From Candidatus Gastranaerophilales bacterium (GTDB lineage Bacteria > Cyanobacteriota > Vampirovibrionia > Gastranaerophilales > Gastranaerophilaceae): a stretch of DNA of 64,000 nucleotides. Location of the stretch: the NCBI GenBank assembly GCA_944324305.1, contig CALUVV010000010.1:1-64000 (forward strand), read 5' to 3'. The position numbers and the translations under genes were made by a program. Below the pieces are notes generated by a model. It saw nothing but the letters and a program-made list of their open reading frames with translations, had not been told where the DNA came from and did not search any database. Of the stretch, positions 16,527 to 54,372 are shown in pieces (positions within the stretch are counted from its first letter, which is position 1; every line of letters begins with the position of its first letter).

Positions 16527-18796
16527 TTATTTTATTTTTGCTTCAAGTTTTTCTATTCTTGCTTCAAGTTCATTAATCCGTTTTTCTTGTGCCTGATATT
16601 TTAAATCAAGTTCTTTGATTGCATTTATCATGGCAAAGAACATATCTTCAAAACGAATTGTTAAAAAGCCGTCCGTACCTTTTTTAACTGCGTCGGGAAA
16701 TACTTTTTGCAAATCCTGAGCGATTACACCGACATGAGGTGTTTTAGTTTCGTCCTTTTTAAAGGTATAATTAAATACCTTGAGGTCGCGAATTTTATCT
16801 AAACCTGATGTAAATTCATTCCCGACATATTTTAAACGACGGTCGGAAAAAGGGGAAGAAGGAGGGAAACCGGGACGGGTTTCATTATATAATTCCACCT
16901 GGTTCTTCCAAGTTTTTGAGCGGAAAAAACCGATGGCATCACCATGCCCGGATTTTCCACCGACTTGGGTCCAGGTAAAGCCGTTTACAACCAAATCAGC
17001 ATTTAAAAAAGCTACTGCATAATTTCCTTTTTTATGTAATTCAAGAATACCGTTTGTACTTATATCTGTTGAACCAGAAGTGAAGTGACCTCCTGAGCCA
17101 AAATATAAACTTTCTGTTGAAGTATCTGAACGCTGCGCCGAATCGCTGGGGCCGGAATGGTTACCGATACAAACCTTATTACTTCCCGTTACCATTCCAC
17201 AAGCAGCTGTTCCGATAGCAATATTATCATCTCCATAAATATTTGCATTCAATGCTCCTGCACCGATGGCAATATTATGGTCACCGGTTGTAACATTACC
17301 CATTACACTCGAAATTACATCAATGCCGTCGCCGTTTTCAGAATATTCTCCGCCGATACCGACATTTTCCGAACCGGTTGTTATCTTATACCCCGCGGCT
17401 TTACCTATCATAACATTACCGCGGCCGCTTGTTACGCTATACATACTGTGAGCACCGATTGCGGTATTCTCTTCGCCTGTTTTATTATTGTACATACTCA
17501 AATAACCGATGGCTACATTATCCTCTATAAAAGATGAATTAGTACTGCTGGATGCTGCACCGCTGCTGTATAATGCTTGATAACCAACAGCTACATTTTG
17601 AGAGCCGCGTTTATTACTTGCTAATGCATTGTAGCCGACCCCTACGTTTGTATTTCCTGATGTATTATTTAACATTGAATAAGCTCCGAGAGCTGTGTTA
17701 TAGCTGCCGGTATTGTTCTGGGTTAACGTTTCATTACCGAAAGCCGAATTACCGGAACCTGATGTATTAGAATAAAGAGAACTGTTGCCAACAGAAGTAT
17801 TATAATCCCCGTTTGTGTTGTTATATAAAGAATTATAACCTGTTCCCAAATTATAATTACCTGTAGTATTACTGTGCAAAGCTCCTGTACCGATACCTGT
17901 ATTATATTTACCTGTGGTATTGTAATATAAAGCAGGTGCACCTAAACCTATATTATATGAACCGGTGGTATTTCTATAAAGAGTATTCTGGCCCAAGGCT
18001 ATATTATAATCTCCGTTTGTGTTTGAATATAACGGATTGCTTCCCAAAGCTAAATTGTATCTGCCGGCAGTATTAGAATATAAAGCTTGTGAACCTATAG
18101 CCACATTACGTTCTCCGGTCGTATTTAAGCGCAGTGACTGATTTCCTAATGCAACATTACTGCTTCCTCTTGTATTATTTAATAAAGTTTCTGTTCCTGC
18201 AGCAATGTTATTTTCCCCGCTGGTGTTAGAACGTAATGCTTCATTTCCTAAAGCTATATTATTGCTGCCGCTGGTATTACTGAGCAAAGTATTTGAACCT
18301 GCAGCAATATTTTTTTCTCCTGAGGTATTCGAACGCAAACTTTCATAACCAATGGCAATATTGTTTTGACCTGTATTATTAGCAATGTTTATATCACTGT
18401 TTCCTAATAATACATTATTACTGCTGTCCATGTATAAACGGCCGACAGTGGTATTATCACGTTTAAAAGATAAATGAAAAGGTAAAGAAGAACTTGAGTT
18501 AATAATTAAACGAGCTTTATCATCTGTTTCAAGTGCATTTGGCTGGCCTATCATGGCTATCTGGCTTTCGCCAGCACCAAAATAAGCATCGGATAAATTC
18601 TCGGGGGAATAACGCCAGGGAGACGAACTGTCAGCTTTACTACGGGTTGTCATGACGGGAGCCATGGCAGCTAAAATTATGCTCATTATGAGCATGACGA
18701 CCATCATTTCTGCCAGAGTGAATGCTGTAAAACCTTGACTACAGCGGCTTAGTCTGCCCCCCCCCCGAAATTAAGATTAATAAATATTTTTTTCAT
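16527..18796 (-). CDS. Pilin-leader, head-repeat, S74-chaperone surface protein; phase-variable, OFF here
   Basis: A start at 18796 (ribosome binding site AAAGGAG) reads MKKIFINLNF and then a 10-G tract. At n=10 it stops at TAA after two more codons. One more G would join it to the prepilin motif GFTAFTLAEMMVV and a 726-residue body starting at 18707. The body has a hydrophobic pilin helix, then about 16 head-like units of 17 residues (SNTSGSNNIALGNEALR). An S74 intramolecular chaperone closes the protein (SDRRLKYVG, with Ser-Lys autoproteolysis residues) and ends in a coiled coil. In phage tail spikes S74 directs trimer folding and is then cleaved off. A cell-surface adhesin is inferred. Confidence 0.75.
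18757..18766 (-). repeat. G10 homopolymer tract (phase-variation site)
   Basis: There are ten C on the plus strand, which is ten G in the coding direction, 30 nt after the start codon. Frame arithmetic gives a full-length product only at n=8 or 11 (n = 2 mod 3). The downstream bases CAGACTAAGCCGCT closely match those after the tract at 38405. Confidence 0.8.
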
Positions 18797-18860
18797 ACTT
18801 TCACTCCTTTTTTTATAATTATAAACGATTTTTAATATTTTTCAAGTAGCAATTATGATT

Positions 18861-19637
18861 TTATTTAATTCCCCACTTCTCCTGCAGTCTGTTTAATCGT
18901 CCTGTACTTTGGAGATTTTGTAAAATATAATTTACCTTTGCCATAAGTCTTTCAGTTCCGTCTTCTTTTCTGAAGGCTATTGCATAAGGTTCTTTCGAAT
19001 AGCGTTTTGGCAACAATTTAACCGATTTGTCTTTTACCGCAAAACCCAAAAGCACTGTATCATCCGCAACTATGCCGTCTGCTTTATTTTCCTTTAATGC
19101 TCTGTATGCGTCATTATAATTTCTGTAACCTATAACTGTAACTTCAGGAACATTTGAACGAAGATTTTTTTCACCGGTTGAACCGAATACAATTATCAGT
19201 TTTTTGCCTTGAAAATCGCTTAAAGTTTTTGCTTTGCTTGAACTGTTAACAAGTATTGCCTGCCCCGCAATATAGTAAGGTACGGAAAAATTCAAAATTT
19301 GCTGTCTTTGATTTGTAATTGACATTGTTGCGATTAAAAAATCAACTTCGGCCGAACTCAGTTTCATTATACGATTAGATGCGGTAACTGGTACAAACTC
19401 AACTTTATTTCCGTCACCGAGAATTCCTTCTGCAATAATTCTTGCGAGGTCTATATCATAACCTGTTAAATTACCTTTATTATCTTTAAAACCGAAAGGT
19501 GCAGCATCGTCACGCACCCCGACAATTAATTTGCCGCGTCTGGTAATATTTGCAAAGTCATCATTTATAACCTCTTTCTTACCGCAGCCTGAAAATAATA
19601 ACAAACAACAAAATAATAATAGGATTATCTTTTTCAT
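18861..19637 (-). CDS. Polar amino-acid ABC transporter substrate-binding lipoprotein
   Basis: This 258-residue protein of family 3 extracellular solute-binding proteins captures a polar amino acid for an ABC importer. The lipoprotein signal peptide ends FSGCGKK, with Cys 19 lipidated. The family signature is clear: GKLIVGVRDDAAPFGF near residue 36, GYDIDLARIIAE near 58, and FSVPYYIAGQAILV near 117. No permease or ATPase gene is adjacent, so it is an orphan binding protein here. The bound amino acid cannot be told from sequence. It separates two S74 pilin-like genes. Confidence 0.88.
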   Translation of the reverse strand: MKKIILLLFCCLLLFSGCGKKEVINDDFANITRRGKLIVGVRDDAAPFGFKDNKGNLTGYDIDLARIIAEGILGDGNKVEFVPVTASNRIMKLSSAEVDFLIATMSITNQRQQILNFSVPYYIAGQAILVNSSSKAKTLSDFQGKKLIIVFGSTGEKNLRSNVPEVTVIGYRNYNDAYRALKENKADGIVADDTVLLGFAVKDKSVKLLPKRYSKEPYAIAFRKEDGTERLMAKVNYILQNLQSTGRLNRLQEKWGIK

Positions 19638-19656
19638 AATAAAGATATAATACTTT

Positions 19657-19690
19657 AAAAAAAACAGCCGAGCAAGAAGACCCGACTATT
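19657..19690 (-). terminator. Terminator of the second S74 gene
   Basis: On the minus strand, AGTCGGG and CTCGGCT form a 7-bp stem (two G-U pairs) followed by eight T. It lies just after the stop at 19697 and differs from the conserved 50-bp terminator of the other two S74 genes. Confidence 0.65.
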
Positions 19691-19696
19691 TTTAAT

Positions 19697-21841
19697 TTAT
19701 TTAAGTTTTGCTTCAAGCTTTTCTATACGGGCTTCAAGCTCATTAATCCGTTTTTCCTGTGCCTGATATTTTAAATCAAGTTCTTTGATTGCATTAATCA
19801 TGGCATAAAACATATCTTCCATACGGATTATTAAAAAGCCGTCTGTGCCTTTTTTAACGGCATCAGGAAATATTTTCTGCAAATCCTGTGCAACAACACC
19901 AACATGAGGGGTTTTGGTTTTGTCTTTTTTCAAAGTATAGTTAAATACTTTCAATTGACGAATTTTATCCAAACCGGAGGTAAATTCTTTACCTATGTAT
20001 TTTAGACGTTTATCTGAAAAAGTAAAAGGATTACCGCTGTTAGGAGATTTAAAATAGCCGCGTGATGCGCTTCCAAATTCACCGCTTACCTGGTTTGACG
20101 AGCCGTTCCAATCCATATTTATAGGTTCTAATTGTCCGCCGGTACGGCCGATACCGTTTACACCACCTTCACCGTCAAATGATCGGTCATCTACCCATGC
20201 CATTGAAGTTACAATACCGCCTTTTACAATCAGTGCTCCGTTAACTACAACAGTAGCAGGTGCAATTGTTCGTCCTCCTGACATTACATAGTTCCAGCCT
20301 ATGCCGTTATGAATTTCCAAAGGTGCGGCACCATCGTTATATGCTGATCGGCTTCCGATAAATATTCTTTCAACACTGTCACTTGCCCAACTGTCACCGC
20401 TTTTAGGACCCGAATTAGCACCTATACAAATTTTATTGGCACCGGTAGCATATTTACAGGCATTGTAACCGATAGCAACGGTATTGCCAGCTATTGCTTT
20501 AGCTCCTGCACCTATAGCCGTACTGCCAACGCCGCCGGCTTGAGAAGAAACTGCTATGGATGTACTGTCGAATCCACTGGCATTAGCAGATGGACCAATT
20601 GCAAGGTTATCACCACCACTGGCACTAGCAGAATAACCTATAGCCATGTCAAGTAACGCATCGGCTTTTGAGTGATTTCCAATAGCCATTGTAAATAAAT
20701 CAGAAGCATTAGTTTGATAACCTATTGCTAATGTTTCCTTAGCTCCTGCAGTTGATAAAGAACCCAGACTTACGCTGTAGTCACCTGTTGTTATAGCACC
20801 ATCCCCAATTGCCACTGATTCTTCACCTGAAGATGTTGTTGTTCTTCCACTTGCAGCACTTCCTATAGCTACCGCACTTTCTCCACTTGCTGTAACATTA
20901 TTACCTATAGCTATACTATCATTATCTTCGGCACTTGATGATAAGCCAATTGCTACAGAAGAATCACCGCTTGCATTAGAAGATGCCCCCAAAGCTACAG
21001 AACCTGTGCCCCCTGCATATGAAGAAAAGCCGACAGCAGTTGTATTTGTAAAATCTGTTAACGTTGTTGTTTTATAATTTGAATTGGCTCCGATGGCTAC
21101 GTTGCCGTCGCCATTACCGTACCATAAAGAATTTGTTCCGACGGCGACATTGTTTTGACCGCTGCCTTCAGACATGGCATCGCCGCCAATTATGGTATTG
21201 CTGCCACCGGTGCCCAATTGATAGGCGTTTCTCCCTACAACTGTATTCCAGCTGCTGTTAGCTCTGGTTAAAGAATCATCTCCTACAGCAACATTATTAT
21301 TGCCGTCAATATTACCCGTTAATGTTGTTCCTATTCCGATGTTATTACCGCCGCTGGTTGTTGATAACATTGCATTATCACCAATCGCAATGTTACTGCC
21401 GCCGCTGGTGACCTGAGTTAAATTATTCGGGCCGATACTGATATTATTACCACCACCGTTTAAATGATCCATACTACCGCTGCCTAAGATGAGATTTGTA
21501 TCTATAAATTGTAAGCGACCCAAGGTCGTATTATCTCGTTTAAAGGACAAATGAACGGGCAAGGAAGAACTTGCGTTTAATATTAAACGAGCGGCATCAT
21601 CGGTTTCCAATTTATTAGGCTGGCCGATTAGTGCGATCTGGCTTTCACCTGCGCCGAAATAGGCGTCGGATAAGTTCTCCGGGGAATAACGCCACGGAGA
21701 AGAACTGTCCGCTTTACTACGGGTTGTCATGACAGGGGCCATAGCAGCCAAAATTATGCTCATTATAAGCATGACGACCATCATTTCTGCCAGAGTAAAT
21801 GCAGAATAATACCTTTGCGGCAGTTTACAATATTTCCTCAT
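19697..21841 (-). CDS. Pilin-leader, YadA-head-like, S74-chaperone surface protein (in frame)
   Basis: This 714-residue protein is the only member of the family here with an intact leader: MRKYCKLPQRYYSA, then FTLAEMMVV at the prepilin cleavage site. AAAGGG precedes the ATG and no G tract is present. The middle part has YadA-like head repeats of about 14 residues (SVAIGLSSSAEDN type), which build left-handed beta-rolls in trimeric adhesins. The C-terminus is an S74 chaperone (FSDKRLKYIG) with a coiled-coil tail. It is close in sequence to the protein at 38321-40536. Anchoring by the pilin helix and trimeric display are inferred. Confidence 0.82.
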   Translation of the reverse strand: MRKYCKLPQRYYSAFTLAEMMVVMLIMSIILAAMAPVMTTRSKADSSSPWRYSPENLSDAYFGAGESQIALIGQPNKLETDDAARLILNASSSLPVHLSFKRDNTTLGRLQFIDTNLILGSGSMDHLNGGGNNISIGPNNLTQVTSGGSNIAIGDNAMLSTTSGGNNIGIGTTLTGNIDGNNNVAVGDDSLTRANSSWNTVVGRNAYQLGTGGSNTIIGGDAMSEGSGQNNVAVGTNSLWYGNGDGNVAIGANSNYKTTTLTDFTNTTAVGFSSYAGGTGSVALGASSNASGDSSVAIGLSSSAEDNDSIAIGNNVTASGESAVAIGSAASGRTTTSSGEESVAIGDGAITTGDYSVSLGSLSTAGAKETLAIGYQTNASDLFTMAIGNHSKADALLDMAIGYSASASGGDNLAIGPSANASGFDSTSIAVSSQAGGVGSTAIGAGAKAIAGNTVAIGYNACKYATGANKICIGANSGPKSGDSWASDSVERIFIGSRSAYNDGAAPLEIHNGIGWNYVMSGGRTIAPATVVVNGALIVKGGIVTSMAWVDDRSFDGEGGVNGIGRTGGQLEPINMDWNGSSNQVSGEFGSASRGYFKSPNSGNPFTFSDKRLKYIGKEFTSGLDKIRQLKVFNYTLKKDKTKTPHVGVVAQDLQKIFPDAVKKGTDGFLIIRMEDMFYAMINAIKELDLKYQAQEKRINELEARIEKLEAKLK

Positions 21842-38320: not shown

Positions 38321-40536
38321 ATGAATAAGTTATTAAGAGAAACAGATGCCCAATTATCGCAAGTTCAACCAGGCTTGTGTAGTGGTGTCTGCGCCCGTAA
38401 TGTCGGGGGGGGGGCAATCTAAGCCGCTCCAATCAACGTTTTTGGGGATTTACCCTTGCGGAAATGATGGTTGTAATGCTCATCATGAGCATAATTTTGG
38501 CTGCCATGGCGCCCGCCATGACAACTCGCAGCAGAGCAGACGGTTCGGTTAATTCTTCCCCGTGGCGCTATTCTCCCGAGAATTTATCCGATGCCTATTT
38601 TGGAGCAGGCCAAAGCCAGATAGCCATGATAGGTCAGCCCAATAAGCTTGAAACGGATGATGCAGCTCGGTTAATATTGAATGCTAGTGCTTCATTACCA
38701 ATTCATTTGTCCTTTAAACGTGACAATACCACTGTCGGGCGCTTACAGCTTGTCGATACTAACCTTGTTTTAGGCAGCGGGAGTATGGACCATTTAACAA
38801 CGGGCGGCAGTAATAATATCAGTATCGGTCCTAATAATTTAACTCAAGTAACGAGCGGCAGCAGTAATATTGCCGTAGGTGATAATGCCCTAATATTAAC
38901 CACAAGCGGCAATAATAATATCGGCATCGGTACCGCACTTGCATCAAATGTCGACGGCAGTTATAATGTCGCCGTAGGTGATGATTCATTAACGAAAGCA
39001 AACAGCAGCTGGAACACCGCAGTCGGTCATAATGCCTATCAGTTAGGCACCGGCGGGAGTAATACTATAGTCGGCGGCGATGCCATGTCTGAAGGCAGCG
39101 GAACAAATAACGTTGCCGTTGGCACCAATTCTTTATGGTACGGCAATGGTGACGGCAATGTAGCTGTGGGAGCCAATTCAAATTATAGAGATAAAACGTT
39201 AACCAATTTTACGAACACAACTGCCGTAGGTTTTTCTTCTTATGCAAGCGGTGATGGATCTGTTGCAATAGGTTATAATTCATATGCAAATAGCGGGTGT
39301 GCTATAGGTAATCAAGCTCAAGCAACGAACTCCGGTATGGCAATAGGAACCGAAGCTAATGCAAGCTCGACAGTTTCAATAGCAATCGGGCTTGGAGCAG
39401 AGGCAAGCGATTCGGTAGCACTCGCTATAGGACGCGGCTCCGCGGCTAAGAGGCCGGAAACAGTTGCTATAGGCTCCGCTGCGTTAGCTGATGGAACTGC
39501 TTCAATTGCCATTGGGTTAAATTCAAGCTCTTCTAATAGCAGCTCTGTTGCTCTAGGTGACAGTGCTTATGTAATGCGTTCAGGAGGTATAGCAATAGGC
39601 AAAAATGCAAGAGTAGGTTCTTCCAATTCGACTATGTATGGTGACAATAGTATTGCTATAGGTCAAGGTGCAAGTGCAGGGAGTGATTATAGTATATCAA
39701 TAGGTTTAAATGCCGGTAATACTAATAAAGGTTCCGGTAATATCGCAATCGGTTCTTCGGCTTGCAGTAATGTAACCGGCAGTCATAAGGTTTGTATAGG
39801 TAATTATTCAGGACCTAAAAGCGGTGACAGCTGGGCAAGTGACAGTGAAGAACGTATATTTATCGGCGGACACTCTAAATTTAATGACGGTAATGCCGTT
39901 CTTGAAGTACACAATAAATCAGGTTATGAAGGAAGAATATTTGATGGTAAATATTTACCCGGCTCTGTCGTTGTTGTAAATGGCGCGTTATTGGTAAAAG
40001 GCGGTATTATAACATCAATGCCCTGGGCTGATGACGGTCATTTTAAAGGTGACGGCGGTTTGAATATGGTAGGTCGTACAGGCGGCCAGCTGGAGCCGAT
40101 TAATACGGAAGGCGGTACTGCTGAACTTGATTTTCAAGAGATTTTTTCAACAAGTGAACGTGGGCAATTCCGCTCTCCAAATAACTACACAAACAAAAGT
40201 GTTTATAACGGATGGTCAGACTTTCGTTTAAAATATGTCGGTAAAGAGTTCAAGTCCGGCTTAGATAAAATTCGAGAATTAAAAGTATTTAATTATACCT
40301 TTAAAAAAGACGCAGCTAAAACACCTCATGTCGGTGTAATCGCTCAGGATTTGGAAAAAGTATTTCCGGAAGCAGTAAAAAAAGGAGCTGACGGTTTCCT
40401 GACAATTCGCATGGAAGACATGTTCTATGCCATGATAAATGCAATCAAAGAACTTGATTTAAAATATCAAGCACAAGAAAAACGGATTAATGAACTTGAA
40501 GTCCGTATAGAAAAACTTGAAGCAAGATTAAAGTAA
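38321..40536 (+). CDS. Pilin-leader, YadA-head-like, S74-chaperone protein; phase-variable, OFF here
   Basis: AAAAAAGGAG precedes the ATG at 38321. The leader reads MNKLLRETDAQLSQVQ..., reaches a 10-G tract and ends at TAA three codons later. With 11 G it would join GNLSRSNQRFWG and the prepilin motif FTLAEMMVV, producing a protein of about 739 residues. The body (from 38464) has YadA-like 14-residue head repeats (VAIGLGAEASDS type), an S74 chaperone (WSDFRLKYVG) and a coiled-coil tail. The internal ATG at 38464 would lack the leader. It is closely related to the in-frame protein at 19697-21841. It ends at the conserved 50-bp terminator. Confidence 0.75.
38405..38414 (+). repeat. G10 homopolymer tract (phase-variation site)
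   Basis: Ten G lie 84 nt after the start codon. A full-length product needs n = 2 mod 3 (8 or 11). The next bases, CAATCTAAGCCGCT, match those after the tract at 18757-18766 almost exactly, showing common descent of the switch. Confidence 0.8.
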
Positions 40537-53662: not shown

Positions 53663-54372
53663 TCAGTAAGTCATTTCCCAGTTGTCGTTAAGAATTTTAC
53701 CGAAACATCCCCACCATGAGGATGTTGTTGATGAAATACAATATTTTTCAAAATAATTCTCTCTGGCATCTGTCGAACATGGAGGCTGAACACATTCATC
53801 ATCAATTATACCGGTGCTATAAAGATTAAAAGCAAAAGTATCTCTCCCTATAATGTTCGGACCTTTTTTACCGTTTATATCAAGATGAACTTGTATTTTA
53901 TTGTTAGAATAAGCACCTAAACTTATTAGTGAGCCGTTTGCAAGAACATAATGCCTAAAATCATATTTTTCATCATCAGAGAAAGGTTCAATGCCTGCCC
54001 CATCCATTTTTTTGTAATCTGTAGCGATACAATCTGCCGTATCTGTATTACAATCCTGAACAATTTTAAAATATTTTTTCATAAACGCATCAATTGCATT
54101 ACCGTCCATAAGTCCTGCCTCTGTTAGGTTTATTGCATTTTTATCAGTCATATATTGCAATGCAGCCTGAGAAAGTTCATTATATACCTTATGTAATTGT
54201 GTAACATAAGTTTTTCTCTGGTGATTTTGCATCAAAGAAGGAACGGTCATTGCGGAAACTACTCCGATAATTCCTAAAGTTACTAAAACTTCTGCTAAGG
54301 TAAACCCGGATCCCCTTGCTATACAATAACTACAACGGGGGGGGGGCAGTTCAAAGCTTTTAATGTCAACAT
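53663..54372 (-). CDS. Type IV pilin-like protein; phase-variable, OFF here
   Basis: A start at 54372 (AGGAGG upstream) reads MLTLKALNCPPP through a run of ten C in the coding strand, and at n=10 ends at TAG six codons later. With 11 C the frame would enter RCSYCIARGSG and the prepilin motif FTLAEVLVTLG, then the pilin body. The body (from about 54250) is almost the same as that of the in-frame paralogue at 52613, including DCNTDTADC and the C-terminal WWGCFG, but differs in several surface loops. It is therefore a switchable second copy of the same pilin. Confidence 0.75.
54337..54346 (-). repeat. C10 homopolymer tract (phase-variation site)
   Basis: There are ten G on the plus strand, which is ten C in the coding direction, 26 nt after the start codon. 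Full-length translation requires n = 2 mod 3 (8 or 11). Unlike the two S74 tracts, here the coding strand carries C, so the switch arose independently or was inverted. Confidence 0.75.

Follow-up and report, generated by a model that had tools for sequence, protein, structure and literature searches.

Three genes in the window (the whole stretch of DNA analysed here, 64,000 nucleotides of contig CALUVV010000010.1 from Candidatus Gastranaerophilales bacterium) appear to join a type IV prepilin N-terminus, YadA-like head repeats and an S74 chaperone domain. They raise the question of whether these parts belong to one polypeptide and, if so, how such a protein would be displayed and controlled. 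An earlier note on this DNA had proposed the three-way fusion for all three genes. The domain order is indeed the same in the three proteins, referred to here as S74-pilins, but a continuous ORF from a plausible start is found only at 19697-21841 on the minus strand (Table 1). This ORF encodes one chain of 714 residues with Pfam matches to N_methyl (E 2.5e-6), YadA_head (E 9e-22) and Peptidase_S74 (E 2.1e-15).

In the copies at 16527 and 38321 the Peptidase_S74 match is strong (E 2e-15 and 2e-14, respectively), the YadA_head cut-off of Pfam is passed by the 38321 copy only, and N_methyl scores 17.5 and 20.5 bits, just under the curated cut-off of 21.2, with input sequences that began 3-4 residues before the motif. 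When scanned with its neighbours in frame, the copy at 16527 passes the N_methyl cut-off. All three proteins end in the same order, SDxRLK and then a coiled coil. In both of these copies a run of ten G residues (G10) lies between the start codon and FTLAE, so that start and FTLAE differ in frame by one base. The start previously assigned at 38321 is a plausible start codon, yet it is out of frame with the remainder of the gene, G10 standing between ATG and GFTLAE. That reading had overlooked the leader's poly-G gate, on whose state the production of two of the three S74-pilins depends.

Table 1. Positions in the window of the three S74-pilin genes, of their parts and of one ordinary prepilin gene.
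Feature	Coordinates	Strand	Remarks
S74-pilin copy 1, gated	16527..18796	-	ATG 18796, G10 in leader, AFTLAE from 18725, stop 16527; one base out of frame in the assembly
G10 tract, copy 1 leader	18757..18766	-	
Peptidase_S74 of copy 1 (SDRRLK)	16683..16847	-	62.2 bits
S74-pilin copy 2, tract-free	19697..21841	-	In frame from ATG 21841
Copy 2 prepilin cleavage motif and hydrophobic helix	21728..21802	-	AFTLAEMMVVMLIMSIILAAMAPVM
Copy 2 YadA-like beta-roll, residues 266-478	20408..21046	-	Model pLDDT mostly above 90; Pfam, Foldseek
Copy 2 hypervariable tip, residues 531-608	20018..20251	-	Predicted new C-terminus if S74 cleaves
Copy 2 Peptidase_S74 (SDKRLK, Ser609/Lys614)	19853..20017	-	Coiled coil follows, to 19700
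S74-pilin copy 3, gated	38321..40536	+	ATG 38321, G10, GFTLAE from 38446, stop ends 40536; one base out of frame in the assembly
G10 tract, copy 3 leader	38405..38414	+	
Peptidase_S74 of copy 3 (SDFRLK)	40216..40380	+	59 bits
Ordinary prepilin gene, C10 in leader	53663..54372	-	ATG 54372, GFTLAE 54307, stop ends 53663; one base out of frame
G10 on + strand (C10 in leader of the 53663..54372 prepilin gene)	54337..54346	+	Regime as in the S74 copies

Both ends of the protein carry conserved motifs. Across 43 aligned homologues, the pilin motif has an invariant mature Phe, Leu and Glu5 (F15, L17 and E19; 43/43), and the S-D-x-R-L-K of S74, in which S609 and K614 constitute an intact Ser-x4-Lys dyad, is invariant too (43/43). 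The N-terminus has the sequence features of a type IV (pseudo)pilin, namely a class III leader, an A or G before F-T-L-x-E, Glu5 and a hydrophobic helix, while the S74 domain occupies the C-terminal position and carries the dyad typical of its family. Mean pairwise identity amounts to 77% in the pilin helix and 79% in S74, to 31-35% in the beta-roll and to 26% in the stretch just before S74, which is hypervariable, ranges in length from 10 to 82 among the homologues and, judging from its position, would form the distal tip once S74 cleaves.

In the monomer model of copy 2 (mean pLDDT 71), residues 17-39 form an N-terminal helix, a beta-roll spans about 280-500, where pLDDT mostly exceeds 90, and another helix lies at the C-terminus; the S74 and tip parts are of low confidence, as is the stretch 549-620. 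Its best PDB matches in Foldseek are the trimeric YadA-like heads of BpaC, BoaA and YadA, and both trimerisation and S74 autocleavage are predicted for the S74-pilins. S74 domains and YadA heads are also known in phage fibres and autotransporters, as would be expected if the proteins were prophage tail fibres or trimeric autotransporters with no more than a resemblance to a pilin. This is hardly credible given that the C-terminal YadA anchor is absent in Pfam scans, that the C-terminus consists of S74 and a coiled coil, that the FTLAE motif with Glu5 is invariant and that in other families the genes lie within pilin operons. Moreover, viral relatives match segments of S74 or of the beta-roll only, never the pilin N-terminus, and a phage origin of the whole protein was rejected on this ground.

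The homologue search yielded 344 relatives, from which 78 loci were kept, all from MAGs of Gastranaerophilales or Melainabacteria apart from a few with loose names. The same domain order, which the earlier note looked to find in other Gastranaerophilales, is indeed widespread: S74 occurs in 29 of the 33 genomes of the genus and in 36 of all 58 genomes searched, and in the relatives' stretches that were checked the pilin motif shares its ORF with S74. The window's genome alone has 11 S74 domains and 8 strong matches to the S74-pilin N-terminus. In this genus the S74-pilin genes are dispersed singletons. Two further families of the order have runs in which three S74-pilin genes overlap or abut and a fourth pilin gene comes next (L131, 5683-11605; L255, 1015-5822), S74 being confirmed by Pfam in 6/6 genes tested. 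In L131, 3/3 genes pass the N_methyl cut-off; in L255 the match is too weak or missing, with the motif still readable in the sequence. As far as gene order can tell, this layout is that of a minor-pilin tip complex, and the presence of three chains per operon together with a trimeric chaperone suggests that the three S74-pilins may form a heterotrimer. Several S74 genes of the set sit at contig ends (L054, L055, L056, L058 and L060), suggesting recombination, or assembly collapse, among near-identical S74 ends.

The window's genome encodes PilB/PilT-type ATPases and one A24 prepilin peptidase. The best reading is that an S74-pilin works like a minor-pilin tip adhesin. The prepilin peptidase would cut the leader before FTLAE, after which the pilin helix would be inserted into a type IV filament. 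There the protein would serve as a minor pilin with a probable place at the tip, a pseudopilus being an alternative location. Its beta-roll would supply the stalk of the trimer, and the variable region beyond it would be the part that binds. The C-terminal S74 would drive trimerisation and then cut off itself and the coiled coil at Ser609, presumably leaving a pilin-anchored trimer.

Each of these parts has known counterparts. The YadA head beta-roll is shared with the trimeric autotransporters YadA, BpaC and BoaA. These are anchored via a C-terminal beta-barrel, unlike the S74-pilins, in which the anchor is the N-terminal pilin helix and the C-terminus is S74. The claim of the earlier note that such a trimer would be a different way to build an adhesin was overstated, considering the precedents of TcpB and CofB (PMC9565799) and of the S74-tipped MAT proteins of Bdellovibrio (PMC10769870). 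Like the S74-pilins, TcpB of Vibrio cholerae and CofB of ETEC combine a pilin helix with a large C-terminal module, and they are modelled as a homotrimer atop the pilus that binds a partner; in contrast to the S74-pilins, they have neither a YadA-type beta-roll nor S74 and stand outside any large gated family (PMC9565799). The Bdellovibrio MAT proteins are likewise bacterial fibres with a beta-helix, a self-cleaving S74 chaperone and varied tips, and in one of them the S74 cleavage, predicted in the present case, has been seen and is blocked in a serine mutant, but their N-terminal domain is not a pilin, has no structural homologue in the PDB and is described in a paper from which the word "pilin" is absent (PMC10769870). 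Also, the S74/ICA domains of phage tailspikes and MYRF are self-cleaving trimerisation chaperones (PMC8326128, PMC3742443), a function predicted here, and differ in their N-terminal cargo; a solved MYRF relative was recovered by sequence search. The literature search found no paper meaningfully joining S74 and pilin. Three known devices, a pilus anchor, a trimeric adhesin stalk and a self-cleaving fibre chaperone, thus come together in one protein, in a common but hardly cultured gut lineage related to cyanobacteria.

With respect to control, the G tracts of the window are not due to chance, since 9 matches to G8 occur against 0.19 expected in shuffled sequence. G or C runs in 622 kb of the genome's own sequence number 117 of length 5, 4 of length 6, 1 of length 8, 106 of length 10 and 6 of length 11, with none of length 7 or 9, a distribution on which chance homopolymers were rejected. 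Genome-wide (G000), 169 G10, 6 G11 and no G9 tracts were counted, about 175 in total.

The same 2.2 Mb genome has at least 146 prepilin-motif genes (for example in L067, L068, L084 and L085), and in most of the small prepilins sampled a tract of ten G or C residues is present and the frame is off by one base. Of the 86 that combine a start codon with a 10-base tract, 85 lack one base (60 G10, 25 C10) and 1 is in frame. Small prepilins of this genome with G11 are in frame in 3 of 4 cases, those without a tract in 24 of 25, and the frame rule of small prepilins recurs in relatives. The S74-pilins are more mixed: the genome's own genes with tract and start, sampled in full, comprise 1 in frame and 3 not, those of relatives 7 in frame and 9 not, with mixed states over G9, G10 and G11, and tract-free ones of relatives 21 in frame and 3 not. 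In all these counts start codons were called by a simple rule, and single cases may be wrong. Re-initiation after the tract was rejected, since in the examples read the FTLAE frame offers no start codon between the tract and the motif.

Taken at face value, these genes have the sequence signature of phase variation, i.e. a homopolymer of at least 8 in the 5' coding region whose length sets the frame. The uniform tract length of 10 could also arise from homopolymer under-calling, in which case the genes would truly be in frame and the gate would be a sequencing or assembly artefact. We regard this as very improbable, because the frame relation recurs in independent MAGs whose contigs have short-read-assembler names (NODE_; G007, G026 and G015), and because tract-free genes are in frame, G11 occurs and non-pilin genes are in frame at G10.

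A second alternative is programmed slippage, by which RNA polymerase or ribosomes would slip by one at G10 or C10 and produce a fixed in-frame fraction of pilin from every gene, the tract being no mutable switch. It would account for the shortage of one base in a single direction in 85 of 86 gated prepilins and for a length almost fixed at 10 genome-wide. However, slippage must then act alike on G10 and C10 of the coding strand, in-frame genes with G10 do exist (the S74 copy of L059 and non-pilin genes), homologous leaders with G11 are in frame, the strand of the tract follows GC skew, which is a trait of the DNA, and, in the classical manner of phase variation, glycan-type genes of a sister genus contain poly-G tracts of 9-12. 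On balance, programmed slippage seems unlikely.

Homologous leaders in ON and OFF states point instead to a switch. In one MAG, the leaders of two paralogues match from the Shine-Dalgarno sequence to well past the tract except for one G, the G11 copy being in frame and the G10 copy not, and comparable pairs are present in the window's genome. Length polymorphism with both states was thus seen between paralogues and between species, and it is from such differences between homologues that slippage of the tract in living cells is inferred. Median pN/pS is 0.32 in tract-bearing and 0.31 in tract-free prepilins; since the two are practically equal, the gated prepilins are used proteins, and purifying selection on them is normal.

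These values also bear on the notion that gated genes are silent recombination donors for in-frame copies, as pilS is for pilE in Neisseria, or decaying pseudogenes. Leaders resemble one another more closely than do the downstream coding regions, several contig ends carry S74 genes and silent stores of pilin sequence have been described (PMC5953494), all of which would suit donors. Every gated gene, however, has its own Shine-Dalgarno sequence and start codon, the leaders vary in length in steps of three bases, pN/pS matches the low value of ungated genes and in-frame G11 copies exist, making donors or pseudogenes a distinctly poor explanation.

Overall, the S74-pilins are probably pilin-anchored, trimeric, S74-assembled adhesins with variable tips, many of them under poly-G phase control within a very large set of gated prepilins. 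In many copies the G tract of the leader sets the frame, gated prepilins being mostly out of frame at G10 and in frame at G11, and one added G would turn a gene ON; with the tract slipping in living cells, each cell would make a small random set of pilins. Live switching of the gated genes and incorporation of the S74-pilins into pili are both predicted, and the pilus tip would be under a control that looks like bet-hedging.

The striking uniformity of the genome's own tracts counts against phase variation, known phase-variable poly-G loci being more varied, as in Campylobacter (G9 53%, G10 26%; PMC6321876). If the assembly gives the population majority at each site, uniform G10 may be observed even though cells differ. 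The G strand matches the local GC skew in 85 of 103 own tracts and in 41 of 46 tracts of relatives, whatever the direction of the gene, and C flanks the tract on both sides in nearly all cases. Some ten bases past the tract stands an AGCTY-like motif, present in 63 of 73 sense cases and in 21 of 24 antisense ones, where the background is 11%. Because this motif is common to both gene orientations, we tentatively raise the possibility, itself rather unlikely, that G10 is an actively maintained DNA element rather than a passive repeat, with its G's on the G-rich strand, which is probably the leading one. About a hundred pilin genes would then be held one base from ON, with cells drawing small random sets from them.

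PilC of Neisseria is not known to be a pilin. Its gene, a pilus gene like the gated prepilins, resembles them in being switched ON and OFF by frame changes at a poly-G tract near the 5' end; there are two such genes, with tract lengths of 9-15 between strains (Jonsson 1991 in PMC5320596), compared with about a hundred gated prepilins here. Many poly-G gated surface genes also make up the phasomes of Campylobacter and Neisseria, which reach maxima of 81 and 90 genes per genome, respectively, with varied tract lengths (PMC6321876, PMC5953494), versus about 175 tracts here, nearly all G10 and mostly in prepilins. As the gated prepilin set exceeds these phasomes, existing metagenome reads could serve to test the default-OFF rule and whether the replication strand affects how stable the tracts are. 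Melainabacteria and phase variation were joined in only one paper, on flagellin, in the literature search.

Poly-G tracts are also found outside the prepilins. Non-pilin genes with an internal G10 are mostly in frame, and one needs G11 (L066 reverse strand, 8925, 12406 and 17935; L244, 10142 and 11308). In the sister genus (L259, G034), tracts of 9-12 occur in genes resembling glycan biosynthesis genes more than prepilins. Finally, some prepilins (L063, L069, L080 and L083) are preceded, about 120 bases upstream, by a mini-ORF that contains G10; a promoter-like sequence comes next, and then a new start codon in frame beside FTLAE, as if the gate had been bypassed.
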